Shown here one piece after another: positions 15,525 to 45,570 of a DNA stretch of 45,570 nucleotides (the stretch's first letter is position 1; each line of letters starts with the position of its first letter). Location: assembly GCA_903929355.1 (NCBI GenBank), contig CAIYUN010000001.1:1-45570 (forward strand), written 5' to 3'. Both the position numbers and the translations under genes were made by a program. Under the pieces are notes generated by a model. It worked only from the letters and a program-made list of their open reading frames with translations, made no database searches and was not told the origin of the DNA. This DNA comes from an uncultured Opitutaceae bacterium. GTDB taxonomy: Bacteria; Verrucomicrobiota; Verrucomicrobiia; Opitutales; Opitutaceae.

Positions 15525-17306
15525 CTATTTGGAGAAGCGGCGGGAAATTTCGGCGTGGGAGAGCTCGATCAGGGTCGGCCGGCCCGCCGGGCTGGTGAGC
15601 GGTGCCCGGCAGGCAAAGAGCGCGGCGACCAGCGAGCGGGTCTCGGCCTCGCCGGCGGCGGGCAGCCGGATGGCGCGCGCGGCGGCGAGGCGGGCGAGCT
15701 GCTCACCGGCCGCCACCGCGTCGGCCCCCGCGAGGCGGCCGTCCCGCAGCGCCCCCAGCAGGTCGCGGGCAAACGGCTCCGCATCGGCCGGTTCCAGCCA
15801 GTCCGGCACCGCCTCGATGCGGAAGAAGTTGCGGCCAAACTCGGCCACCTCAAACCCATGCGCCCGGAGAAACTCGCGCCCGTCGAGCAGCAGGGCGGTG
15901 GCCACCGGGTCGAGCTCGAGCGGCACCGGCAGCAACAGCCGCTGGCCCGCCACCGGGCCGCCGTGGAACTGCGCCTGCAGCCGTTCATACCACACCCGTT
16001 CATGCGCCGCGCGCCGGTCGAGCAGCAACAAGCCCGCCGGCGTCTCGAACAGGGCATAATCGCCGTGGGCGACGCCGAGAAAACGCCAGTCGGGCGGCGC
16101 CGCCGCCCGGCTGGAACGATCCATGACCCCTGACCCCTGACCAAAGGCTGAAGGCGCGGAAGGGGTGGCGGCCGTTGACGGGGCGGGGCGGGGCGGGATC
16201 GCAGGGGAGGGGGCGGGCACGGGGCCCGCATGCAACGGCCCGGGCGGCCCCGGCGGCCGCGGGAGGAGGCCACCGGCCAGGCTGGCGGACGGCACGCCGC
16301 CGCCCAGGGGCCCCGCCCCCAATTCCCGCAGGCGATTCAGCACGGCGCGGACGACAAACCCGCGCACGGCCGGCTCGCAGCGGAAACGCACCTCGCGCTT
16401 GGCGGGATGCACGTTCACATCCACCGCCGCCGGATCAAGGTCCAGAAACACAAATGCCGGTGGGTAGCGGCCTTTCGGCACCGAATCGTGGTAACTCTCG
16501 ATCAGTGCGTAGGTGAGCGTGCGGCTGTCCACTGGCCGGGTGTTGACGAAGGTCACCAGCTCGTGCCGCGTGGCGCGCCCGAGACCGGGTCGACCGATCA
16601 GGCCGTGCAGCCGCAGCCCCGGCTCCGCCGCCTCGATGGGCACCAGCTCGGCGGCGAGCTGCTGGCCGAAAATCTCCGCCACCCGGGCGGCCAGGTCGGC
16701 GCACTCCGGCGAGCGCAGCACGGTGCGCCCGTCCTCCACCAGGGTGAACGCCACCCGCGGGAACGCGAGCGCGTAGAGCCGCACGCAGGCCACAATATGG
16801 GCCGACTCGGTCGCATCGGTTTTGAGAAACTTCCGCCGCGCGGGGACGGAGTTGAACAACTCCGCCACCTCGATGCGGGTGCCGGGCGGCCGGCCGCAGT
16901 CGCGGACGTGGACGAACCGGCCGCCGTTCACCAGGATCTCGGTGCCGGCGTCGTCGCCGGCCGCGCGGGTTTGCAGGGTGAATCGCGCCACGCTGGCGAT
17001 GGACGGCAGCGCCTCGCCGCGGAAGCCGAAGCTTGCGAGCCGGTCGAGGTCCTCGGCGACGGCGATCTTGCTGGTCGCATGGCGTTCGAGGGCGAGCAGG
17101 GCGTCGTCGCGCGCCATGCCGGCGCCGTTATCCTCGACGCTCATCAGGGCGCGACCACCATGGCGGAACTCCACCTCGATGCGGGTGGCGCCGGCGTCGA
17201 GCGCGTTTTCGACCAGCTCCTTGACCACCGCGGCCGGCCGCTCGATCACCTCGCCGGCGGCGATTTGATTGGCGACCCGGTCGGTCAGGATGCGGATTTT
17301 CGGCAT
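15525..17306 (-). CDS. mutL: DNA mismatch repair protein MutL with degenerate endonuclease motifs
   Basis: The 593-residue protein starts [24 protein letters not shown], the invariant MutL N-terminus. It contains the GHKL ATPase motifs [18 protein letters not shown] and [10 protein letters not shown], followed by a Pro-rich linker (about residues 340-410) and the C-terminal dimer domain. In repair MutL couples MutS mismatch recognition to strand incision. Where endonuclease-type MutL proteins carry DQHAxxExxxxE, this one has [12 protein letters not shown] (about residue 428). The C-terminal CPHGRP-like metal site reads SPAGRP (about residue 568). Like E. coli MutL it is therefore probably not an endonuclease (inference). 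It is divergent from recQ. Confidence 0.95.
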
Positions 17307-35890: not shown

Positions 35891-35923
35891 CCATCCGTAG
35901 CTCGCATGGCGAGCGAAGGATGG
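35891..35923. repeat. REP-like palindrome overlapping the CCA end of tRNA-Arg
   Basis: CCATCC-GTA-GCTCGC-ATG-GCGAGC-GAA-GGATGG forms a 33-base hairpin with two 6-bp perfect stems around a small internal loop. Its outer TGG (35921-35923) is the complement of the tRNA's encoded CCA. The structure therefore lies immediately at the mature 3' end of the tRNA transcript. No T-tract follows. It may serve as a processing or stability stem, or be a mobile palindrome that landed on the tRNA end. Confidence 0.75.
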
Positions 35924-35997
35924 TGCGATGGGCGGGACTCGAACCCGCGACCGACGGTTTAGAAAACCGTTGCTCTATCCGCCTGAGCTACCACCGC
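35921..35997 (-). tRNA. tRNA-Arg (anticodon TCT)
   Basis: On the minus strand GCGGTGGTAGCTCAGGCGGA begins a full cloverleaf. The acceptor GCGGTGG pairs with CCATCGC (one G-T). The D arm has AGCTCAGGCGGATAGAGC. The anticodon stem ACGGT/ACCGT holds a TTTCTAA loop with anticodon TCT, and the T arm is GCGGGTTCGAACCCGC. The discriminator A is followed by an encoded CCA. It reads AGA (Arg). The integrase operon begins 88 bases beyond its 5' end. Confidence 0.96.
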
Positions 35998-36051
35998 AAG
36001 TCATTCTTTACCAATGAATAACATTTAATTAAACCCTCGGTAAAAATAGGC

Positions 36052-36072
36052 TTGTAACCCGTTATTGTAACC
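36052..36072 (+). repeat. Direct repeat TTGTAACC x2 upstream of the integrase
   Basis: Two exact TTGTAACC copies, 13 bases apart start to start (36052-36059 and 36065-36072), end 13 bases before the integrase ATG in an AT-rich leader. They are candidates for arm-type integrase sites, an operator for the downstream HTH protein, or part of the promoter. Confidence 0.55.
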
Positions 36073-36085
36073 TTATGGTTTTGGC

Positions 36086-37174
36086 ATGGAAAACGACCCA
36101 AACGACCAGCCGGAAGCTTCCGAAAACGCCCTGTTTCGGAAGGTGGGAGAGTGCCTTTACCGTCACGTTCCATCGGGCAAGTATTACGCCCTGGTGAAGC
36201 GTTCAGGCAAGCAGTATCGCCGCTCCCTCAAGACCGACGACCGCAAGCTGGCCGAGCGCCGTTTGTCGGAGTTCCGGGAGAAGGTCGGCAAGCTCTCGCA
36301 CACCGCCACGGCCCGCCAGCTTACCTTCTCCGACCTTGCGTCGCGGTGGGTGGAGACGCTGCGCCCCACCTTGAAGGCGTCCTCCTTTACCCGTCGGCAG
36401 AACAGCCTTGCCCAAATCGCGCCCTACCTTGGCAACCTTGGCCTGCGGCATTTCACCGCGCGGGTGTGCGAGGAATGGGCGGGGAAACGCAGCCCCGAGA
36501 TTGCCGCGTCCACCTACAACAACGAGCGCGACACGATCATTGCCGTGCTGGCCTACGCGAAACGCGAGGGGCTGATACTGGACAACCCGGCGGAAGTCCT
36601 CTCCCGGCGGAAACTCACGCGGAAGCAAATCGTCATCCCGACCAAGGAGCAGTTTTCAACCCTCGTGCGCACGTTGCGCGGGATGGACCGGCGCAGCCAC
36701 GAGGCGGCAAACCTGTTGGAGTTGCTGGCCTGTTCCGGGATGCGCCTGCGGGAGGCCACCGCTCTGCGCTGGCAGCACGTCAATTTCGACGCGGGGCGTT
36801 TCGCCGTCACCGGGGATGAACACGGCACGAAAAACCGGGAGGTGCGGGAGGTTCCGCTGTTCCCGGCCATGCGGGCGTTTTTGGAGAAGCTGCGCGGGGA
36901 GCGCCAACCCGCCGCCGGTGACTTGGTGATCGGCATCGCCAGCGCCAAGACGACGATGGAGACGGCGTGTGGCAAGGCCGGGCTGCCCCGGTTCACCCAT
37001 CACAGCCTGCGCCATTACTTCGTGAGCAACGCGATTGAGGCCGGGGTGGATTTCAAGGTGATCGCGGGCTGGGTGGGGCACCGGGATGGCGGCTTGCTGG
37101 TGGCCAAGACCTATGGTCATCTGCGGGACACCCACTCCTTTGAAATGGCCAAACGCATGACTTTTGCCGCATGA
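36086..37174 (+). CDS. Tyrosine recombinase/integrase of the island
   Basis: The 362-residue site-specific recombinase has an N-terminal arm-binding part (about 18-60, YRHVPSGKYYALVKRSGKQY), a SAM-like core-binding domain (about 75-175, ASRWVETLRPTLKASSFTRR) and a catalytic domain. The active-site set is complete: Arg220 (SGMRLREATALRW), His306 and Arg309 (HHSLRHYFV), His332 (GWVGHRDGG) and nucleophile Tyr343 (AKTYGHL). It should integrate and excise the element, probably near the adjacent tRNA-Arg, although no att repeats are visible in the window. Its stop overlaps the next ATG (ATGA at 37171), so it leads a polycistronic operon with replication genes. Confidence 0.95.
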   Translation: MENDPNDQPEASENALFRKVGECLYRHVPSGKYYALVKRSGKQYRRSLKTDDRKLAERRLSEFREKVGKLSHTATARQLTFSDLASRWVETLRPTLKASSFTRRQNSLAQIAPYLGNLGLRHFTARVCEEWAGKRSPEIAASTYNNERDTIIAVLAYAKREGLILDNPAEVLSRRKLTRKQIVIPTKEQFSTLVRTLRGMDRRSHEAANLLELLACSGMRLREATALRWQHVNFDAGRFAVTGDEHGTKNREVREVPLFPAMRAFLEKLRGERQPAAGDLVIGIASAKTTMETACGKAGLPRFTHHSLRHYFVSNAIEAGVDFKVIAGWVGHRDGGLLVAKTYGHLRDTHSFEMAKRMTFAA

Positions 37175-37905
37175 ACGAAAACGAAAACGCACTCAGCCAA
37201 CGCCAACTCGATGCGGCAAAAAGGATGGGGCGTGTTGCCGGACTGATAATGCTGGTTCAAACGCAACAACCAAGCAAGGTGCCGGCCTGGGTGATGACCT
37301 GCTTGCAGCGTGTTATGGAAGCGTGCGGCCCGGGCGGAGGGCAAGCAGTTGCAGATCTGAGCGGAGGTTCGCCCTACATGGTCGGTTTTGGCATGGGCAC
37401 GGTTGGACTCTTGGCTAGTTTCATTCGGAACCCGGACGAGAGCTGGGGTCAATCGCCGCGGCCATGGTTCGACGCCTATTTTTCAAGCATGTTTTCAACC
37501 ATTGGTGTCCTGCCGCCTCCAACTTTCTGGCATGATTTCAAGCAGACCATTTTTGATCTTTTCCTCTCAATGAACTACGAGCAAAAGCGCGGATTCATTG
37601 AGGGGTTAACTGCTGCAAACGAAGCCGAAAATGATTTCCGCACCGACAAGCGCCATGACACGGACGCGACGCCCCTCTATCTGGAACTCCTGCTGTATTG
37701 GCCGGAGATTAATGAAATGGAAAGCCTGCCGGAAGTATTTCGCCTTTTGGAGACGCGCTTTATGGATGCCCCCGCTAGGCTGGGAAGCTTTGAGCGCTTC
37801 CGACTTGCTGCCAACCGCATCAAATTAAGTTTCAAAGATCATATTCCCTTGGCTTTGCCCACGGTCAGCCCAAGCCCCCCGGTTGAACGTCCCCCTCCCG
37901 GTTGA
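37171..37905 (+). CDS. Unknown protein translationally coupled to the integrase
   Basis: I do not recognise this 244-residue protein. It begins MNENENALSQRQLDAAKRMGRV and ends in a Pro-rich tail (SPSPPVERPPPG). The middle is rich in aromatic residues and predicted helices (PRPWFDAYFSSMFSTIG, FWHDFKQTIFDLFLSMNYEQ, LYLELLLYWPEINEMESLPE). One Gly-rich hydrophobic stretch (PYMVGFGMGTVGLLASFI) might touch membrane but looks too polar for a true transmembrane helix. No signal peptide or enzymatic motif is seen. The ATGA overlap with the integrase implies coordinated production, suggesting a role in recombination directionality, replication or element control (inference). Confidence 0.7.
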   Translation: MNENENALSQRQLDAAKRMGRVAGLIMLVQTQQPSKVPAWVMTCLQRVMEACGPGGGQAVADLSGGSPYMVGFGMGTVGLLASFIRNPDESWGQSPRPWFDAYFSSMFSTIGVLPPPTFWHDFKQTIFDLFLSMNYEQKRGFIEGLTAANEAENDFRTDKRHDTDATPLYLELLLYWPEINEMESLPEVFRLLETRFMDAPARLGSFERFRLAANRIKLSFKDHIPLALPTVSPSPPVERPPPG

Positions 37906-37913
37906 ACGTCCCC
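37881..37913 (+). repeat. Direct repeat GGTTGAACGTCCCC x2
   Basis: Two exact 14-base copies with a 19-base period (37881-37894 and 37900-37913) span the end of the unknown 244-residue gene and its intergenic gap. They lie 50 bases upstream of the HTH gene start and could be an operator for that protein or an iteron-like site. Confidence 0.6.
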
Positions 37914-37963
37914 TTCATGCTGACCCTGATGCGCTGAACGAATCTGTGCGACTCTTAGGGCGT

Positions 37964-38182
37964 ATGCAAAACGCCACAAACACCCACAGCACCAACGGGC
38001 CAGCCAGACTTGCCCTTTCTCGTCACGAAGCTGCCGAAGTCCTCGGCATGAGTCCAATCAGTCTTGACCGGCTCGTAAAGCGCGGGCTTGTCCGGCCCTC
38101 CTGCGCCACCCGTCGTCCGCTCTTTCCCGTTTGGGAGTTGGAGCGGTTTTTACGGGACACGTCAAAGGAGGTCACGCCATGA
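37964..38182 (+). CDS. AlpA/excisionase-type helix-turn-helix protein
   Basis: A 72-residue protein (ATG at 37964, preceded by TTAGGG) with a single winged-HTH core of the MerR/excisionase type: LALSRHEAAEVLGMSPISLDRLVKRGLVRP, then LFPVWELERFLRD. Such small proteins act as excisionases or as activators of the integrase operon in satellites and integrated plasmids. Its stop overlaps the primase ATG (ATGA at 38179). An earlier TTG (37883) would add 27 residues through the direct repeat and is not favoured. Confidence 0.85.
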   Translation: MQNATNTHSTNGPARLALSRHEAAEVLGMSPISLDRLVKRGLVRPSCATRRPLFPVWELERFLRDTSKEVTP

Positions 38183-39168
38183 GCCGCGCGCCCTCAATCC
38201 CTGCCGCAACGCGCGCCCGGCTCGCCCACCCTGCCCCGCCCGGCCAGCGCCATGCCCAAATCGTGACCATTGCCGCCGCCCTGATTGCGGAGGGGTTCAA
38301 CGCCGAGGCCGCATTCCACCAGCTCCGCCCGAATTATGGCCCCGATTTGCCGGATGCCGAAATCCGGGCGGTCATTCGCTGGGCTGAAAGCGAAATGGCG
38401 GGGAAATGCCGTCTTGCGCCCCCGGCATCAAAAGCCCCGAGCCGTCGCCGGGGATGGAAAACACCCCCCGCCCCAATTACGCCCGCAATCACCCCGATTG
38501 CCGCAATTGAGCGTTTTCTAAATGGCTTTCGCTGCGAAGAAGCCGACCTTTGGGACCATTCCCCGATTCGCCTCGGGGAAACCTTTGGCAGCGATTCCGG
38601 CCTTTTAATCGATGCCCTTTATCGCCCCGGTGAAAGCGTGAACATAGTTTCCGCGCACGCGGTTTCCGGCGGAAAGGCGCACCCCGCTGGCCGGGGCATC
38701 AACCGCACCCGCGAAAATTGGCTGGCGGAAATGGCTCGCCATGGTCCGCCGCAAGGAGGGGCGGGGGTCTGGATTCGCCCGAATCCGACCAATGGCCGGG
38801 GCGTTTCCGATGCCGACGTGACCGCACACCGTTTCCTTTTGGTGGAATTCTACGCGGTTCCCCTTCCGCTGCAATTGGCGTTTATTGCCCGATTGCCGCT
38901 GCCGATTTCCGCCGTAATCGCCAGCGGAGGCAAATCGCTGCACGCATGGGTGCGAATTGACGCCGCAAACGCTGCCGAATACCGCGCCTTTGCCAGCGAA
39001 ATTTTCGCCCGGCTCTCCCCTTTTGGGGCTGATCCGGCCAACCGCAACCCGAGCCGTTTGAGCCGCATGCCGGGCGTGCTCCGTCCGTCCGCCAGCGGAG
39101 GCGACAACCGCCAACGGCTCCTTTACCTCGACCCGCACCCCGAAACTGCCGGGAGGATTTTCCCATGA
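38179..39168 (+). CDS. AEP-type (RepB-like) DNA primase
   Basis: A 329-residue protein with an N-terminal helical part (about 1-75, QIVTIAAALIAEGFNAEAAF, then RWAESEM) and a C-terminal archaeo-eukaryotic-primase-like domain. Visible family pieces are GVWIRPNPTNGRGVSDADVT, the acidic strand FLLVEFYAVPLPLQLAF, VIASGGKSLHAWVRIDA, and NRNPSRLSRMPGVLRP near the end. The SGGKSLHAWV and RLSRMPG motifs are typical of plasmid and phage-satellite primases. By family knowledge it makes primers at the element's origin with the RecA-fold helicase encoded by the next, ATGA-coupled gene. The usual second metal-binding Asp appears to be replaced by Tyr (VEFY), which lowers certainty about catalysis. Confidence 0.78.
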   Translation: MSRAPSIPAATRARLAHPAPPGQRHAQIVTIAAALIAEGFNAEAAFHQLRPNYGPDLPDAEIRAVIRWAESEMAGKCRLAPPASKAPSRRRGWKTPPAPITPAITPIAAIERFLNGFRCEEADLWDHSPIRLGETFGSDSGLLIDALYRPGESVNIVSAHAVSGGKAHPAGRGINRTRENWLAEMARHGPPQGGAGVWIRPNPTNGRGVSDADVTAHRFLLVEFYAVPLPLQLAFIARLPLPISAVIASGGKSLHAWVRIDAANAAEYRAFASEIFARLSPFGADPANRNPSRLSRMPGVLRPSASGGDNRQRLLYLDPHPETAGRIFP

Positions 39169-40256
39169 ATCCCGTTATTAACCTTGAACCCTTGAAAACG
39201 GAGACCTCCGCCGCCTTCTCCCCGGACTCGCCCCCGGCCCTCCCCGTCATCGAATTCTTCACCCCGTCGCAACTCCGTGCCTACCGCCCGCCGCCCGGTG
39301 CGGTGCTGGTGGGGCAAAACCATCTTGTGCGTGGCGCAACCTTCATAATCGGCGGCGCGCCTGGTGTCGGCAAAAGCCGGGCCGGTACGGCACTGGCGGT
39401 GGCGGGTGCGACCGGGCAACCGTGGTTTGGTCTCCAAGTCACCCGACAGTTCCGTACCCTCATCATTCAAAACGAAAACGGGCCACTCCGTCTCAGCGAT
39501 GAGTTTTTCGCCCTGCCATGCGAAAAGCTGGACGCATGGGTGAGCGTTTGTCCCCCACCTCCATTCGGCCTCGCCATTCGCCACCCCGAATTCCGCAAGG
39601 CGGTCATGGATGAAATTGACCGGTTCAATCCCGACGTGGTTTTGATTGATCCGTGGAATGCGGTCGCCCAGGACGACAAGGCCCGCGATTACCTCGATAC
39701 GTTTGAGATGTTGCGTGGTATGATTCCCGCCAAAGACGATTCTCCGGCCCTCGGCATCATCGCGCACACTCGCAAGCCAAAGCATGACGAACGCGCCAGC
39801 GGGCGCGGTCTGCTCAATCTGCTCGCCGGTTCCTACGTTCTCGCCTCCGTCCCCCGCTCTGTCTTCGTGCTCCAGCCCGCAACCGACGATCCCGATGACG
39901 GCCGCGTGGTTTTTACCTGCTGCAAAAACAACGATGGCGAGATGGGCAAACCTTCCGCATGGACGCGCCGCAACGGCTTGTTCGCCCCCGTGCCGGACTT
40001 TGATTGGGAGGAATTCCACGCGCCGACCGCCAACCGATCAACGATCACCGCCGACGACGTGGCCGCCGCCCTCGCGCACGGCGAGCGCGCCGTGACCAAA
40101 CAAGACGCCGTCAAAGCTCTCATGGACGCCACCGGCTGCGGGCAAGCCGCCGCCTATGGCGCGTTGAAAAATGACGGGCGTTTCAAAGATCATCTGCGCG
40201 AGGAGGGCCGCCCGGTGAAACTCCGTTGGCTACCCGTCCAAAAAATGTCTGCATGA
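39165..40256 (+). CDS. RepA-like RecA-fold ATPase/helicase
   Basis: A 363-residue AAA_25/RepA-type ATPase. Walker A is IIGGAPGVGKSRAG (about 62-72), Walker B is VVLIDPWNAV (about 156-165), and IIAHTRKPKHDERASGRG is the sensor-like stretch of hexameric plasmid helicases such as RSF1010 RepA. The C-terminal 70 residues (TADDVAAALAHGERAVTKQD, then GCGQAAAYGALKNDG) look like a small winged helix. Coupled by ATGA to the primase gene, it probably forms the element's own replication helicase. The next gene begins 4 bases after its stop. Confidence 0.87.
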   Translation: MNPVINLEPLKTETSAAFSPDSPPALPVIEFFTPSQLRAYRPPPGAVLVGQNHLVRGATFIIGGAPGVGKSRAGTALAVAGATGQPWFGLQVTRQFRTLIIQNENGPLRLSDEFFALPCEKLDAWVSVCPPPPFGLAIRHPEFRKAVMDEIDRFNPDVVLIDPWNAVAQDDKARDYLDTFEMLRGMIPAKDDSPALGIIAHTRKPKHDERASGRGLLNLLAGSYVLASVPRSVFVLQPATDDPDDGRVVFTCCKNNDGEMGKPSAWTRRNGLFAPVPDFDWEEFHAPTANRSTITADDVAAALAHGERAVTKQDAVKALMDATGCGQAAAYGALKNDGRFKDHLREEGRPVKLRWLPVQKMSA

Positions 40257-40260
40257 CCCC

Positions 40261-41256
40261 ATGCCAGCCCCGCCGCTTCGCCTGCCGCCAGTCGTTTATG
40301 ACGACGGGTTGGCCTCGTTTATAACCCTGCTGGGGTTGCACGCGGGCCGAGCCGTTGGGCAACCCTTGGTCTTGGACATGCAGGAAGTCAGGTTTTACAC
40401 GCCCGGAGCCATTGCTGGATTGCTGGCGATTTTACACCGCTGGGTGAGGGAAGGCAGGGAGGTGCGGCTGCAAAACGCGGAATTTGCCCCCGCCTTTGGC
40501 TACCTGCAACGCATGGATTTTTTCACGCTCTGCGGGCTGAACCTGCCGGAGTACTTTCGCCGCCATGAGGCCCACGGCCGGTTTGTCACCCTGCGGCGAA
40601 TTGATTCCAGCCTGACCGGACAGGTTGACACCGTGGCGGCTGAAATCGCCCGGTGTCTGTACCCCGATCAGGCCGACTGCGACGACCCCGCCGCCACCGG
40701 CCCGCATGACCTCGTGCTCTACGCCGCCGGCGAACTCATCAACAACGTGCTGCAACACGCTCGCGCGGGCGGGTTCACGCTGGCGCAGGTGTATCCGCAG
40801 CTTGGCATGGTGCGCGTTGCCATCGCTGATTTTGGCATCGGCATCCGGGGCAGTTTTGAGGAGACCCGTCCTCCGTTTTGGGATGATGCCGCCAGCGACC
40901 TTGATACCGTCCGCGTGGCCCTTGAACCCAAGGTTTCGTCAAAACTCCACGTCACCTCACCCTGGGGTGAAGGCGTCAATGTCGGGGTGGGGCTTTCCAT
41001 CCTCAAGGAACTGGCTCGCGATGCCGAGGGAATCTTCACGCTCGCCATTCAGGCCGGTTTCCACCAATGGAATCACAGCGAAAGGCACGACTTCCCCTCG
41101 GAATTGTCGCTGCCTGTCTCCTACCCCGGCACGGTTTGCGCTGTGCAAGTCAACCAGTCCAAGCTCGTTGATCAACAAGCGACCCTCATGCGGGCCAAAA
41201 CTCGCTTACACTTGCTGGACAATTCCGCTCCGTTCGACGACCTTTTTGAACCATGA
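40261..41256 (+). CDS. STAS-like plus GHKL ATPase regulator
   Basis: A 331-residue protein with two parts. The N-terminal part (about 20-90) has a STAS-like pattern (QPLVLDMQEVRFYTPGAIAG, LHRWVREGREVRLQN). The C-terminal part (about 140-300) is a GHKL ATPase: N box AGELINNVLQHARAG (about 155-168), G1 ADFGIGIRGSF (about 189-199) and G2 GEGVNVGVGLSILKEL (about 236-250). This resembles anti-sigma kinases of partner-switching systems rather than two-component kinases, since no phosphoacceptor histidine domain is seen. It is ATGA-coupled to a STAS-like DUF4325 gene, the expected antagonist or substrate. Function inside an integrated element is unknown; regulation of induction or a defence/abortive role are possible inferences. 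Confidence 0.8.
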   Translation: MPAPPLRLPPVVYDDGLASFITLLGLHAGRAVGQPLVLDMQEVRFYTPGAIAGLLAILHRWVREGREVRLQNAEFAPAFGYLQRMDFFTLCGLNLPEYFRRHEAHGRFVTLRRIDSSLTGQVDTVAAEIARCLYPDQADCDDPAATGPHDLVLYAAGELINNVLQHARAGGFTLAQVYPQLGMVRVAIADFGIGIRGSFEETRPPFWDDAASDLDTVRVALEPKVSSKLHVTSPWGEGVNVGVGLSILKELARDAEGIFTLAIQAGFHQWNHSERHDFPSELSLPVSYPGTVCAVQVNQSKLVDQQATLMRAKTRLHLLDNSAPFDDLFEP

Positions 41257-41567
41257 ACCACGAACTCTACCTTGCTCAGGACATCGGCACCTATTTGGCC
41301 GAAGGTGCGCGGATGGCCGAGTATCGCCTGCGGGCCATTGAGCCGTTTTTCGGCGTTTAAGGCGTCTTCGTTCTGGATTTTTCCGACGTGCGGGGCGTTA
41401 ACAGCTCATTTGCGAACGCCTTGATTGTGCCCCTTTTCGCCCAGCATGGCCCTGTGGCGTTGCAAAAACTCCGCTTCCGTCACTGCAACCCCGTGGTCAA
41501 GCTCATGCTGGAAAGCGCGTTAACGCTCGGCTTGGAGGCAGCGCACTGCAATAAAGCCCATGTTTAA
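41253..41567 (+). pseudogene. STAS-like (DUF4325) partner gene interrupted by an in-frame TAA
   Basis: Starting at the ATG that overlaps the previous stop (ATGA), 35 codons (MNHELYLAQDIGTYLAEGAR, ending RAIEPFFGV) are followed by TAA at 41358-41360. The same frame then continues for 68 codons (GVFVLDFSDVRGVNSSFANA, LRFRHCNPVVKLMLESALT, ending HCNKAHV) to TAA at 41565. The second part is the core of a STAS-like DUF4325 domain (LDFSxVRGVxSSFAN). A single G-to-T or C-to-T change (GAA or CAA to TAA) would explain the break. It may be a recent pseudogene, a sequencing error, or a read-through product. The full protein would be 104 residues. Confidence 0.82.
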
Positions 41568-41640: not shown

Positions 41641-41814
41641 TTCAACAGAACAGGGGGCGTGTAGCCACTGACGGACCACCTAACGCATGGGGGCCAGGGT
41701 TGGGCCGTTGCCAATCATGGGTTAAGGATTCCTCTACTTTCCCCTTGACCGCAGCTAATACCTGAAACACTCTACGCTTCGCACCGTTTGACCAATCTCC
41801 ATACCTTCACATTT

Positions 41815-42609
41815 ATGCCCACCAAGCGTTCCGCCCCGAAACACGTCGCAACTCCAACGCCTGTCAAAGCCATAGCTTCCCGCTGGATCACGGCCGCGCA
41901 GCACGCCGAGCTTATGGCCCTCATGGCAGATGAAGGAGGTTCATGTCGCTACTTAATCACTTTTGAGAGAGTCAGCGGTGACCATATGACAGTTGAACCG
42001 CACACCACACCGCCGTTGCCGCCACCTGGATCCGCTGGAGATATGGTATGGGACGGGGGAGCAGGTGATCCCTCAACATCATGGGCAAGCGGCTCCCGAA
42101 CTCCGCTATCCCCGCCTGGACCGCTCTATGGTTCAAATTCCATGAGTCTTGAAGTTGATGCATTCTCAGATTGCGTTCAATTTCCAACACCATCTGGAAA
42201 AACCTTGAATAATCTTCAATGGAGCGGCGAACTGCAATACAATATCTTTATCACACCTTATGGTTGCGATCTAAGTCAGAAATGTAAGATAACCTACAAC
42301 GTGGATAGCTCATTTTCTTTGAATTATTTGCCCGATGTCACATGGGATTCAAATGCAGAATCCAAGACGATAGTAAATTACATTCCATTTTCAGGTATTG
42401 CTGGCGGACAAGTTGGAGACATAAACCCGTTTGATTCCTATAACACATCGCCCGGTGTGCAGACTGGTACAACCAACCCAATCACATTAACTGGAAGGAC
42501 GCAAGTAGGGCAAATATTTGTCGGACACAATTGGTATCAATTGACAGGGAGAGGGTTGAGCTCAACGGCCAGCTCAACGATTACTATTAGTGTTAGTAAG
42601 GTTCCGTGA
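41815..42609 (+). CDS. Unknown low-GC cargo protein
   Basis: I do not recognise this 264-residue protein. It begins MPTKRSAPKHVATPTPVKAI, has a short helical part (about 25-50, ITAAQHAELMALMADEG), a Pro/Gly/Ser-rich middle and a beta-rich C-terminal half with many Asn/Thr/Ser (LEVDAFSDCVQFPTPSG, LNYLPDVTWDSNAESKTIV, TNPITLTGRTQVGQIFVG). No signal peptide or membrane helix is evident. GC content is far below the chromosome and the replication operon, suggesting separate acquisition. The beta-rich C-terminus recalls secreted or surface modules, but without an export signal this is only an impression. Confidence 0.55.
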   Translation: MPTKRSAPKHVATPTPVKAIASRWITAAQHAELMALMADEGGSCRYLITFERVSGDHMTVEPHTTPPLPPPGSAGDMVWDGGAGDPSTSWASGSRTPLSPPGPLYGSNSMSLEVDAFSDCVQFPTPSGKTLNNLQWSGELQYNIFITPYGCDLSQKCKITYNVDSSFSLNYLPDVTWDSNAESKTIVNYIPFSGIAGGQVGDINPFDSYNTSPGVQTGTTNPITLTGRTQVGQIFVGHNWYQLTGRGLSSTASSTITISVSKVP

Positions 42610-42679: not shown

Positions 42680-43258
42680 ATGACGACAAAACAGAAATAT
42701 TTTTTTTGGGGGGGGATTTCGGTTGCGGTAGTTTTAGCTTCCCTCTTATTTATTTTCGACCATTCCAAACTAAAGGATGAACGGGCTGTGCGCAACCACT
42801 TCTTAAGTCTTGTACGCACATTCGAAGCAGGTGTTGATATCTATCGCTCGGCAAATGGCCAGTATCCAAAGTCGTTTGATAGAATGCCGCATTTGACAGG
42901 TGGTCTAATCACGCCGATATTATCTTCGGACGTGGGTCGGGGAGCATGCGACATGATTTATGAGATGAGACCGAAACTAACAGGGTTAGCCGACGAGCCT
43001 TATTCAAATATAAGACTTTGGTTCGACAGTAAAAATAGAGAATCTTCGGATTTTCAGCAGTTTCCCCATTATTGGATTGCATTCAATGTGAATGGCGAGA
43101 ATTATATATATGTCGATAATACTGCGGAGTTCGGTTCCAATTTTATTCTTCCGGTTGTTTTCTTAGAACATCTAAGGGTCGTGCAATCTAAGGCGCTAAA
43201 GGCTGGAGTTCCTTTTGATAATACGCAAGTTACCTACCTTGAAGCAATAATTAAATAG
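42680..43258 (+). CDS. Unknown membrane-anchored cargo protein
   Basis: A 192-residue protein with a short cytosolic start (MTTKQKYFF), one membrane helix (about 10-27, WGGISVAVVLASLLFIF) and a soluble remainder. The region just after the helix (VRNHFLSLVRTFEAGVDIYRSANGQYPKS) resembles the first helix and loop of pseudopilin-type proteins (general secretion G-like: helix, then NGxYP). It lacks a prepilin leader with the usual GFTLIE motif, so the match is weak. AT-rich codon use like the preceding gene suggests common foreign origin. Confidence 0.55.
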   Translation: MTTKQKYFFWGGISVAVVLASLLFIFDHSKLKDERAVRNHFLSLVRTFEAGVDIYRSANGQYPKSFDRMPHLTGGLITPILSSDVGRGACDMIYEMRPKLTGLADEPYSNIRLWFDSKNRESSDFQQFPHYWIAFNVNGENYIYVDNTAEFGSNFILPVVFLEHLRVVQSKALKAGVPFDNTQVTYLEAIIK

Positions 43259-44436: not shown

Positions 44437-45291
44437 TTGCGCCCTTGGCCACAGTCTGGCTTGGGGCGAAAGAACCTACGCCCGAGTCCATCACCAATCC
44501 GTCCCGTGCTGCTCATCGTCCCCATTAATGACCGGATCGAACTCCTTCCCTATTTTTTGCGCTATTATTCCTCGCTAGGCGTGACGGAGTTTGTCTGCGC
44601 CCTGTTCAATGGGGGGAGCAATCCGCACTATCCTGCAATCAAGGCATGGTCCACCCGCTACCAACTTAAGATACGCAATTCTGTATTCGCCGACCTGAAA
44701 GTCCGCAATTCCGTGATTGCGGGCAAAGCGGACCATTACTGCTCAGACATTGACAGTCTGGGCATAGACCGGATTCGCGAGGAGGTCGCCGCTGACCATC
44801 GTTGGTATGCCATTGCCGACTTGGATGAGTTTCACTCATTCGGAGGGCCGACTCTGCCGGAGGCGGTGGAGGAGGCGGAGCGGCGCGGCTGCGAGGCGGT
44901 GCATGGGGTGTTTTGTGACCGGATCAGCGCCGACGGCAGTTTTCCCGAAATCAATGGTCCGCTGGACGATACCTTTCCGCTCGCGTGCAACCTGACCGCG
45001 CGCACCGGCCATTGTCGCGAGAAAATTGTCTTGGCCCGCAGCCATGTGCGGATCACGAGTGGCCACCACTCGGCGGCGGCCAAGGTCTGGCGCAACGTGG
45101 CGCTGGTGCATCATTTCAAATGGAGCCGGGGCGTGGACGCGCGAGTCGTGGCGAATTACCGCACCGCGCAGGCGAAAGGCATCGCCTGGATGCTCCATGC
45201 CCTTCCGCCAGTGCTGGAGGTGATCGCAAATGGGGTGAACCTCAGCGATCCGCGCCTGCGCGTGGCACCGGCGCCGAAGCTGGGAATCTGA
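44437..45291 (+). CDS. GT2/GT92-like glycosyltransferase
   Basis: A protein of up to 284 residues with a GT-A core: PVLLIVPINDRIELLPYFLRYY, then GVTEFVCALFNGG, and the acidic motif WYAIADLDEFHSFGG in place of the DxD. This matches the Glyco_tranf_2_4/GT92-like group often found with surface-glycan genes. The exact start is uncertain: TTG at 44437 lies 6 bases after the previous stop, while GTG at 44506 begins right at the first beta strand. The C-terminal part (HHFKWSRGVDARVVANYRTA) is typical of the group. GC content rises to chromosomal level within the gene. It is probably co-transcribed with the GT31-like gene. Confidence 0.78.
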   Translation: MRPWPQSGLGRKNLRPSPSPIRPVLLIVPINDRIELLPYFLRYYSSLGVTEFVCALFNGGSNPHYPAIKAWSTRYQLKIRNSVFADLKVRNSVIAGKADHYCSDIDSLGIDRIREEVAADHRWYAIADLDEFHSFGGPTLPEAVEEAERRGCEAVHGVFCDRISADGSFPEINGPLDDTFPLACNLTARTGHCREKIVLARSHVRITSGHHSAAAKVWRNVALVHHFKWSRGVDARVVANYRTAQAKGIAWMLHALPPVLEVIANGVNLSDPRLRVAPAPKLGI

Positions 45292-45339: not shown

Positions 45340-45430
45340 GGGCGAAACCGGCAAGGCGTCAGCAAAAACACGATCCAACGGGCGTGGCAGAACCACGGCC
45401 TCAAACCGCATCTGACGAAGAGCTTCAAGC
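45340..45430 (+). mobile_element. IS630-family transposase remnant
   Basis: One frame encodes GVSKNTIQRAWQNHGLKPHL and continues TKSFK (to 45429), the HTH and following segment of IS630-family transposases. No start codon or downstream catalytic part is present; the sequence is cut at 45430 where an IS66-type end begins. The left limit of the remnant cannot be fixed. Confidence 0.75.
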
Positions 45431-45570
45431 GTAAGCGTCCGGCGCTCGACCTACTATTCGGCAGCGGGGCGGCGGTGTAAGCTGCGAGGATGGCAACCAT
45501 CACAACGGAAGTTTTAGACGGAGAGAGAAAACAGGACACGCGCGGGCGTCGGATCGTGAACGCCGAGCGC
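45431..45570 (+). mobile_element. Left end of an IS66-family element (continues beyond window)
   Basis: GTAAGCGTCCGGCGCTCGAC begins with the GTAAGCG terminus known for IS66-family inverted repeats and directly interrupts the IS630 remnant. The first IS66 gene starts 59 bases inside. The 8-bp target duplication and the right end lie outside the window. Confidence 0.8.
45490..45570 (+). CDS. IS66-family accessory protein (TnpA-like), N-terminal 27 codons only
   Basis: The frame starts at an ATG preceded by GCGAGG (MATITTEVLDGERKQDTRGR) and runs off the window. The position 59 bases inside a GTAAGCG end, and the basic, polar N-terminus, fit the first small gene of IS66 elements, which precedes the TnpB/TnpC transposition genes. 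The product cannot be confirmed from 27 residues. Confidence 0.55.
   Translation, partial: MATITTEVLDGERKQDTRGRRIVNAER

Follow-up and report, generated by a model that had tools for sequence, protein, structure and literature searches.

The window analysed here is the whole contig CAIYUN010000001.1 (45,570 nucleotides; contig C1 of the 91 in assembly GCA_903929355.1) of an uncultured Opitutaceae bacterium, and the subject of this study is an operon on its forward strand which runs from an integrase gene through replication genes to a pair encoding a STAS-GHKL protein and a STAS-like protein. Very probably, the operon belongs to an integrative element of Verrucomicrobiota which inserts in the 5' half of a tRNA gene and carries exchangeable replication and defence genes, the pair being the relic of a kinase-switch cargo. 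An earlier note on this DNA had proposed an integrated element, and this part of it is supported by the attachment repeats, by the arm-type repeats and by relatives of the same architecture. The points of most interest, the clade of 5'-half integrases and a kinase pair embedded in restriction-modification (RM) operons, lie within known kinds of system. Loci, genomes and contigs are cited below by working numbers (L, G and C).

The operon is preceded by an intact tRNA-Arg(TCT) gene on the opposite strand, with a spacer of 88 bp between the tRNA 5' end and the integrase start. When the genome was searched with 201 bp around this tRNA, the left attachment repeat was recovered on the 7370-bp contig C10, on the same strand and with 41/41 identity; besides this exact copy, three other matches to the tRNA region were obtained, each at about 75%. 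The paired arm-type repeat found between the tRNA and the integrase gene occurs again at C10:1349-1368, ahead of the right attachment repeat, and after that repeat C10 continues with metabolic genes (alpha-galactosidase, cobalamin adenosyltransferase and arabinofuranosidase). Copies of one multi-copy insertion sequence (IS) sit at the end of C1 and at the start of C10. Its ends are imperfect inverted repeats and, since the identical 8 bp CTTCAAGC stand outside both (C1:45423-45430 and C10:142-149), the two contigs were taken as joined by a single IS insertion. These features support the operon as the predicted left end of an integrative element spanning C1 and C10, which measures 10,816 bp from repeat to repeat with the IS left out. 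Insertion on the 3' side of the tRNA, the usual mode, was rejected, as it is the 5' half that is repeated and the integrase gene is found on that same side.

Within the operon (Table 1), the frames, the four ATGA overlaps (integrase/protein X at 37171, helix-turn-helix (HTH)/primase at 38179, primase/helicase at 39165 and GHKL/STAS at 41253), the 4-base gap at 40257-40260 and the 58-base gap at 37906-37963 were all found where the earlier note had placed them. Its count of seven genes held for six open frames only: the seventh, STAS-like frame is broken in the assembled sequence by a TAA at codon 36, and the piece behind the stop, the one searched, matches DUF4325 (Pfam, E 2e-9), so that the operon consists of six open genes and one interrupted gene. 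The identities given to the integrase, the helicase and the primase were confirmed by family matches, the last by PHROG 2597 at E 8e-34. The AlpA-like assignment of the HTH protein is backed by the excisionase-type PHROG 66 (E 1e-5), but in Pfam the match to HTH_17 (E 5e-4) stays under the cut-off. The 244-residue protein, here protein X, remains as unassigned as it was, with no match in Pfam, PADLOC, PHROGs or NCBIfam at the thresholds used; an AlphaFold2 model built from six sequences is helical, with a mean confidence score (pLDDT) of 56, and was set aside. A 19-bp sequence stands twice in direct orientation at the 3' end of the X gene (37875-37912), possibly a small duplication altering the C-terminus. 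The integrase frame is open, and R220, H306, R309, H332 and Y343, which we take to be its catalytic residues, are conserved.

Table 1. Features of the element and its borders within the window (aa, amino acids; ORF, open reading frame; AEP, archaeo-eukaryotic primase)
Feature	Positions	Strand	Evidence or remark
tRNA-Arg, anticodon TCT, intact; integration target rebuilt at the element's left end	35921-35997	-	ARAGORN, Rfam
Left attachment repeat, 41 bp (tRNA nt 1-39 plus 2 upstream bases)	35959-35999		Exact copy at G000:C10:1494-1534 (L006)
Paired arm-type repeat, GTAACC at 13-bp spacing, between tRNA and integrase gene	36052-36073		Putative integrase arm site
Tyrosine integrase, 362 aa	36086-37174	+	PF00589, E 3e-18
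Protein X, 244 aa, no database family	37171-37905	+	Relatives have members beside the integrase
AlpA/HTH_17-like DNA-binding protein, 72 aa	37964-38182	+	
AEP-type primase, 329 aa	38179-39168	+	PHROG 2597, relatives
RecA-fold (AAA_25, RepA-like) helicase, 363 aa	39165-40256	+	AAA_25, E 2e-12; relatives
STAS-GHKL kinase-like protein, 331 aa, VapK/CapK-like; cargo	40261-41256	+	
STAS-like DUF4325 gene (VapS-like)	41253-41567	+	In-frame stop at 41358-41360
Cargo ORF, 273 aa, no family	41788-42609	+	
Cargo ORF, 192 aa, no significant family	42680-43258	+	
Cargo ORF with Galactosyl_T domain, 301 aa	43526-44431	+	
Cargo ORF, 284 aa, no Pfam family	44437-45291	+	
8-bp target duplication left of the IS copy	45423-45430		Same 8 bp at C10:142-149
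Left end of the multi-copy IS breaking the assembly	45431-45570		Element goes on at C10:142-1534

The same arrangement is found on single contigs elsewhere. A tRNA search of 24 genomes, own included, revealed a second half copy beside tRNA-Arg(TCT) in G014, where contig C91 holds exact 39-bp repeats 11,853 bp apart (L123:3702-3740 and 15555-15593). Between them lie an integrase 57% identical to that of the window, an X-like protein, an HTH protein and a helicase (49%), followed by type I RM genes. The integrase is present in two and absent in 11 of the 13 tRNA-Arg(TCT) loci fetched from relatives. Searching genome contigs with an integrase alignment gave 23 loci (L141 being the G014 locus and L144 that of G097), in records of Verrucomicrobiota save for L136, titled bacterium, and the fragment L156, titled proteobacterium. 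Four were left out of the layout count, L152 and L156 because they start within the integrase gene at a contig end, L157 and L158 because they are C-terminal integrase fragments. In 18 of the remaining 19, ARAGORN places a tRNA gene antisense to the integrase gene, its 5' end 54-122 bp from the integrase match, while the nineteenth (L143) has a tRNA-like stretch broken by Ns at the equivalent place. The targets of the 18 are Arg-TCT, Arg-CCT, Met (CAT), Lys-TTT, Thr-TGT and Ile-TAT.

A second repeat was sought in 22 entries, L143 not among them, and was seen in L136, L137 (32 bp, at the contig end), L139, L146, L148, L153, L154, L155, L123 and, in a longer stretch fetched as L179, in L140 (38 bp, 11,910 bp apart). 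Both repeats are accordingly mapped in 11 of 20 distinct elements (the 19 loci plus the window), on Arg-TCT, Arg-CCT, Met and Lys-TTT, and the repeat is the 5' part of the tRNA in all 11. No second repeat was found in L138, L142, L144/L134, L145, L147, L149 or L150, whose contigs end 0.9-10.3 kb past the start of the integrase match, nor in the 11 kb searched in L151, where the integrase is broken. By eye, pairs of GTAACCC-like repeats (often GTCACCC), 12-14 bp apart, were recognised near both ends: the left pair stands just before the integrase gene and the right pair starts roughly 140-155 bp before the right repeat. They occur in the window with C10, L123, L136, L137, L139, L146, L148, L153 and L154, and in degenerate form in L155; we infer that they may be arm-type integrase sites. 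In a tree built from 16 integrases, a single change accounts for the four Met rows (support 59/90), and rows with Arg-TCT stand mixed with those of Arg-CCT. Among these elements, the one of L153 (L153:9853-17846), which has its two ends on a single contig, belongs to a named strain, Pelagicoccus mobilis KCTC 13126. That of L139 (L139:9871-11605) is a 1.7-kb unit with little beyond an integrase gene between perfect 42-bp tRNA-Arg(CCT) repeats.

Most islands in tRNA genes rebuild the 3' end of their target, and the native promoter stays in place. The Islander survey reports 3760 islands with a 3' tRNA fragment against 159 with a 5' fragment, 3919 in total (PMC4383910), and a review describes the 5'-half situation as seldom encountered in bacteria (PMC8371274). 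The present element shows the features by which Islander recognises such islands: it contains a tyrosine integrase and is bordered by an intact tRNA gene and, at its far end, by a co-oriented tRNA fragment, an arrangement also seen on single contigs among the relatives. As in the 5'-half mode, this fragment corresponds to the 5' part of the tRNA, and the complete gene has the element on its 5' side. In these features the element resembles the 5'-fragment islands (PMC4383910) and the pTN3-like archaeal integrases (PMC8371274), in which, as described, the rebuilt tRNA likewise has an element-side upstream region and the repeat ends at the anticodon region. Unlike pTN3, whose integrase the review counts among those split on integration (PMC8371274), the integrase gene of the window stays whole; and unlike the 5'-fragment islands in general (PMC4383910), these elements form one Verrucomicrobiota clade which uses the 5' half in 11/11 cases at four tRNA species, with two more suggested by orientation. 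No paper on this element family was found among the matches listed in the literature searched, which lacked most subscription journals.

Comparison of the relatives separates a constant part from an exchangeable one. A profile of protein X built from L145, L146, L148 and L149 recovers the held-out proteins of the window (E 1e-10), L144 (1e-19) and L179 (2e-8), with E-values computed for a database of 1000; the L141 member was found by BLAST only (2e-4). Window-like HTH genes are present in 10 of the 23 integrase loci, the L136 copy being on the other strand. Replication modules vary: the window has primase and helicase, G014 a helicase with no primase detected, and L149 an HUH-type Rep (PF23343), similar frames being recognised by eye in L145, L146, L153 and L179. 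Three more distant elements of the class (L055, L056 and L058) show the order integrase, middle gene, HTH, primase, helicase, where the L055 helicase and the L056 HTH were placed by eye. The relatives' cargo includes, besides the type I RM genes of G014, Cas9, Cas1 and Cas2 in L149, an Mrr-plus-helicase protein in L148 (PADLOC type IIG, E 3e-73), Fic in L154, YaaC in L153 and PIN in L179. On sequence comparison, arm-type repeats, integrase, protein X and HTH recur as the apparent constant parts, and replication genes and cargo appear to be swapped. The replication module proposed in the earlier note stands, on its domains and because relatives have the same gene order, with primase/helicase or HUH Rep following integrase and HTH, and replication of the element on its own is likely. 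That note had named the absence of the seven genes from other genomes as evidence against itself; this applies in part: the seven were found together nowhere else in the searches made. Two observations concern single relatives: the cas genes of L149 (L149:13534-17655) belong to an uncultured Verrucomicrobia record whose contig stops before the right repeat, and very similar PIN-type frames lie between the integrase gene and the X gene at L146:11344-11766 and L179:7832-8260 (by eye; PIN_3 in L179).

As regards the gene pair, the STAS and GHKL domains of the 331-residue protein, announced in the earlier note, each stay under the Pfam cut-off in the single protein, but were accepted because family matches, structure matches and ATP-site motifs support them. 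Within a family of 14, window included, seven members match STAS_2 and seven HATPase_c at E 1e-3 or better; the family profile reaches structures of STAS proteins, of CheA/histidine kinases and, weakly, of anti-sigma F; and the GHKL ATP-site motifs are conserved across all 14. The protein is predicted on this family support to be STAS-GHKL kinase-like, with domains that are weak singly. A structure modelled from its single sequence (pLDDT 36) was discarded. The DUF4325 profile of 12 members matches Escherichia VapS (9z7o_A) at E 1e-16, VapS is still the best hit of a seven-member subset without vapKSC members (E 0.006), and the Ser pair of this subset aligns with the published VapS phosphorylation site, whose number was taken from the paper with the tag offset counted by hand. 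The PADLOC model of DrmA (DISARM) matches residues 80-230 of the STAS-GHKL protein at E 7e-10; some DrmA proteins may carry a related domain.

Of 141 relatives, with the own genome counted in, 6 have the GHKL protein (two as weak matches); DUF4325 is present in 28 of 286 genomes of the class, likewise counting the own genome. A GHKL gene of the family beside a DUF4325 gene was found at 16 distinct loci, window included, after leaving out partial or weak GHKL matches (L066, L091, L085 and L019) and nine DUF4325 loci without GHKL. L068 was dropped as a pair because there both domains are fused: at L068:646-1719 (G151) a 357-residue protein has a MarR-like start, HATPase_c_2 and DUF4325 in one frame. 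In 10 of the 16 pairs the two genes overlap by NTGA. Inspection of the frame lists of the 16 loci, with searches of selected proteins, showed RM genes within about 7 kb of the pair at seven loci: type I at L180, L181, L185, L186 and L190, an N6_N4 methylase with a ResIII protein at L193 and an Eco57I-type methylase at L182. From the specificity-domain density of those genomes, about 0.19 type I loci would be expected against the five seen (P about 5e-7), a rough estimate, as 17 loci were used (L068 in), the neighbourhood width was picked after viewing the loci, two matches were assumed for G082, which lies outside the class sample, and genomes without a shown match counted as zero. Proteins without a Pfam family stand between the type I specificity gene and the pair at L186:8087-9403 and L180:4693-6018.

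Because recombinase genes lie near it in several places (integrase and HTH_17 genes at L182, L187 and L193, an integrase at L189, a serine recombinase about 5 kb away in G074), the pair evidently travels with other mobile elements; no integrase more than 26% identical to that of the window is encoded in the stretches fetched around the 15 other pairs. In G082 the pair stands among what look, by eye, like housekeeping genes. Three loci (L183, L184 and L190) are vapKSC operons, the joint profile of their third genes matching Escherichia VapC (9z7o_C) at E 4e-51. A scan of viral contigs with the GHKL family gave one relative, followed by a DUF4325-like frame (by eye), at L196:3767-5179 on a 59-kb contig of IMG/VR. 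Taken together, the pair looks like separable, defence-type cargo and not like part of the element's control core. The copy in the window, with which no VapC was found, is most likely a relic: it is probably non-functional because the STAS gene is interrupted and a search of the genome for type I specificity domains gave 0 matches.

The nearest described systems are CapK-CapS and VapK-VapS-VapC (Chambers et al., EMBO J 2026, PMC13373217). According to that paper, CapK is activated by single-stranded DNA (ssDNA) and phosphorylates CapS, which de-represses an immune operon; VapK, modelled with ssDNA, controls VapS, the antitoxin of VapC; 88 of 443 capKS pairs are directly downstream of RM genes; and an aromatic residue in the STAS-GHKL groove (CapK W68, VapK F54) is linked to ssDNA sensing. 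The family studied here resembles both in having a STAS-GHKL kinase gene followed by the gene of a STAS-domain partner, in the RM and defence neighbourhoods of the pair and in the match of the DUF4325 profile to the VapS structure (PMC13373217). Unlike CapK and CapS as described there, the window kinase has no N-terminal HTH and its partner no winged HTH (wHTH): the STAS match begins near the N-terminus of the kinase, and the partner frame, of about 104 codons, leaves no room for a wHTH. A STAS-GHKL kinase without HTH is shared with VapKSC, but a VapC-like PIN third gene is missing, no PIN family being found in the window cargo ORFs behind the STAS gene, which is itself interrupted (PMC13373217). 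Since the CapK HTH, the CapS wHTH and VapC are all lacking, the pair was assigned to neither system. Kinase W61, a candidate for the groove aromatic, is invariant in six close relatives and not in all 14 family members. In the literature searched, DUF4325 turned up in two papers. A table of Francisella phage genes lists a 293-residue unknown protein followed by a DUF4325 protein, near a repressor and an integrase (PMC7924643).

A working scheme can be proposed for the element. The integrase would recombine in the anticodon-loop part of the tRNA gene; the attachment site of the circle would carry tRNA nt 1-39, and integration would leave a complete tRNA gene at the integrase end. The upstream region of this gene would then be the element's 88-bp spacer, so that its promoter is probably element-borne too. 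A promoter scan of the spacer gave one minus-strand site against 0.2 expected and was not used as evidence. The HTH protein probably regulates excision or the integrase gene, protein X, judging from its constant place, probably assists the integrase or the HTH protein, primase and helicase probably replicate the excised circle, and the genes behind the helicase would be exchangeable cargo. By analogy with VapK and CapK, the kinase may sense ssDNA and phosphorylate a conserved serine of its STAS partner, which would then release whatever it restrains.

Several points weigh against this interpretation. The two ends of the element sit on different contigs of the assembly, its excision is a prediction from sequence, and no empty site with matching flanks was found: among the 24 genomes, the first right-flank protein is present in one besides the own genome, and the 13 tRNA-Arg(TCT) loci fetched from relatives have none of the flank genes nearby. 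The X profile fails in L153 and in the more distant elements L055, L056 and L058 (at or near control scores), and gives no hit in L142. The integrase fragment of L158 has the usual layout beside a tRNA-Arg with no second repeat within 10 kb, and that of L157 sits on the other side of a tRNA-Lys. As to the kinase, a single STAS partner (L016) finds nothing in the PDB by itself, and the supposed ssDNA-sensing step is drawn from a paper about distant relatives. Finally, the copy in the window may be dead, because its right end holds transposase remnants and its STAS gene is interrupted.

This last point leads to the strongest alternative, that of an old insertion which survives as a genomic island after losing mobility. 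It is quite possible, though not what we would favour: besides the interrupted STAS gene, an IS lies inside the element and a DDE-transposase remnant (C10:419-1327) before its right attachment repeat, and relatives L151, L154, L155, L157 and L158 have broken or partial integrases; yet the window integrase remains open with its five residues conserved, both attachment repeats are identical and the paired repeats are kept near both ends.

P4-like satellites and phage-inducible chromosomal islands (PICIs) have a compact core of integrase, HTH and primase/helicase genes. A satellite of this kind, excised on helper-phage infection and packaged by the helper, would suit the size of about 11 kb, the Int-HTH-primase-helicase core, the defence-type cargo of the relatives and the PHROG match of the primase. 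It is nevertheless a somewhat unlikely identity for the element, as no packaging, capsid-size or terminase family was found in the scanned window proteins (ten by Pfam, nine by PHROG) and the integrase has no close counterpart in the phage records listed: all matches in phage and plasmid records are below 60% identity, the 15 listed in each are below 30%, and viral contigs gave two distant matches only (28%; 45% over 51 residues). With regard to integrative conjugative or mobilisable elements, no relaxase domain was detected in the scanned window proteins, and an origin of transfer was not searched for. Tycheposons, likened here by description only, share a tRNA at the border, a tyrosine recombinase and variable cargo (PMC10872708).

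The earlier note had suggested that the partner switch controls induction of the element. The position of the pair, directly behind the helicase gene with a 4-base gap and ATGA coupling, and its occurrence near other integrase and HTH_17 genes in L182, L187 and L193 would fit such a role, but it is highly improbable and that suggestion was abandoned: BLAST detected no GHKL or DUF4325 gene in the 23 integrase loci, L123 or L179, a negative which is firm only for elements with both ends because several loci end soon after the integrase gene; the STAS half is broken in the window; and elsewhere the pair lies inside RM operons. That the C10 repeat is due to chance or to an artefact of the 91-contig assembly, with its ends on separate contigs, and the operon an ordinary chromosomal cluster, has a next to negligible chance, given an identity confined to the tRNA 5' half, adjoining paired repeats, the contig link through the target duplication and relatives that show this layout on one contig.

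The integrative element with exchangeable cargo remains the preferred interpretation, and a broader one is put forward tentatively: that these are phylum-restricted, modular, defence-carrying elements which seize the promoter side of tRNA genes, and that the pair represents a third branch of the DNA-damage kinase switch. If so, the host's tRNA supply would depend on an element-borne divergent integrase/tRNA spacer (the 5'-half mode being shown for four tRNA species and suggested for two), and a STAS-GHKL kinase with a minimal STAS partner, lacking VapC or a wHTH, would tune restriction in RM operons. The clade is of interest in that integrases of one phylum target several tRNA genes in the rare 5'-half mode. 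Precisely mapped ends and a named strain among the carriers, Pelagicoccus mobilis KCTC 13126, make the reading of a host tRNA from element-side sequence directly testable. Kinase/STAS pairs embedded in RM operons would, in turn, widen a regulatory switch published in 2026.

The IS which interrupts the element is also informative on the assembly itself. Window positions 45431-45570 and L006:1-141 belong to it, and its target duplications pair the contig ends C36-C66, C28-C2 and C39-C75, each only with its own partner (by eye), C78 being partnerless, so that such duplications are usable for scaffolding the assembly.

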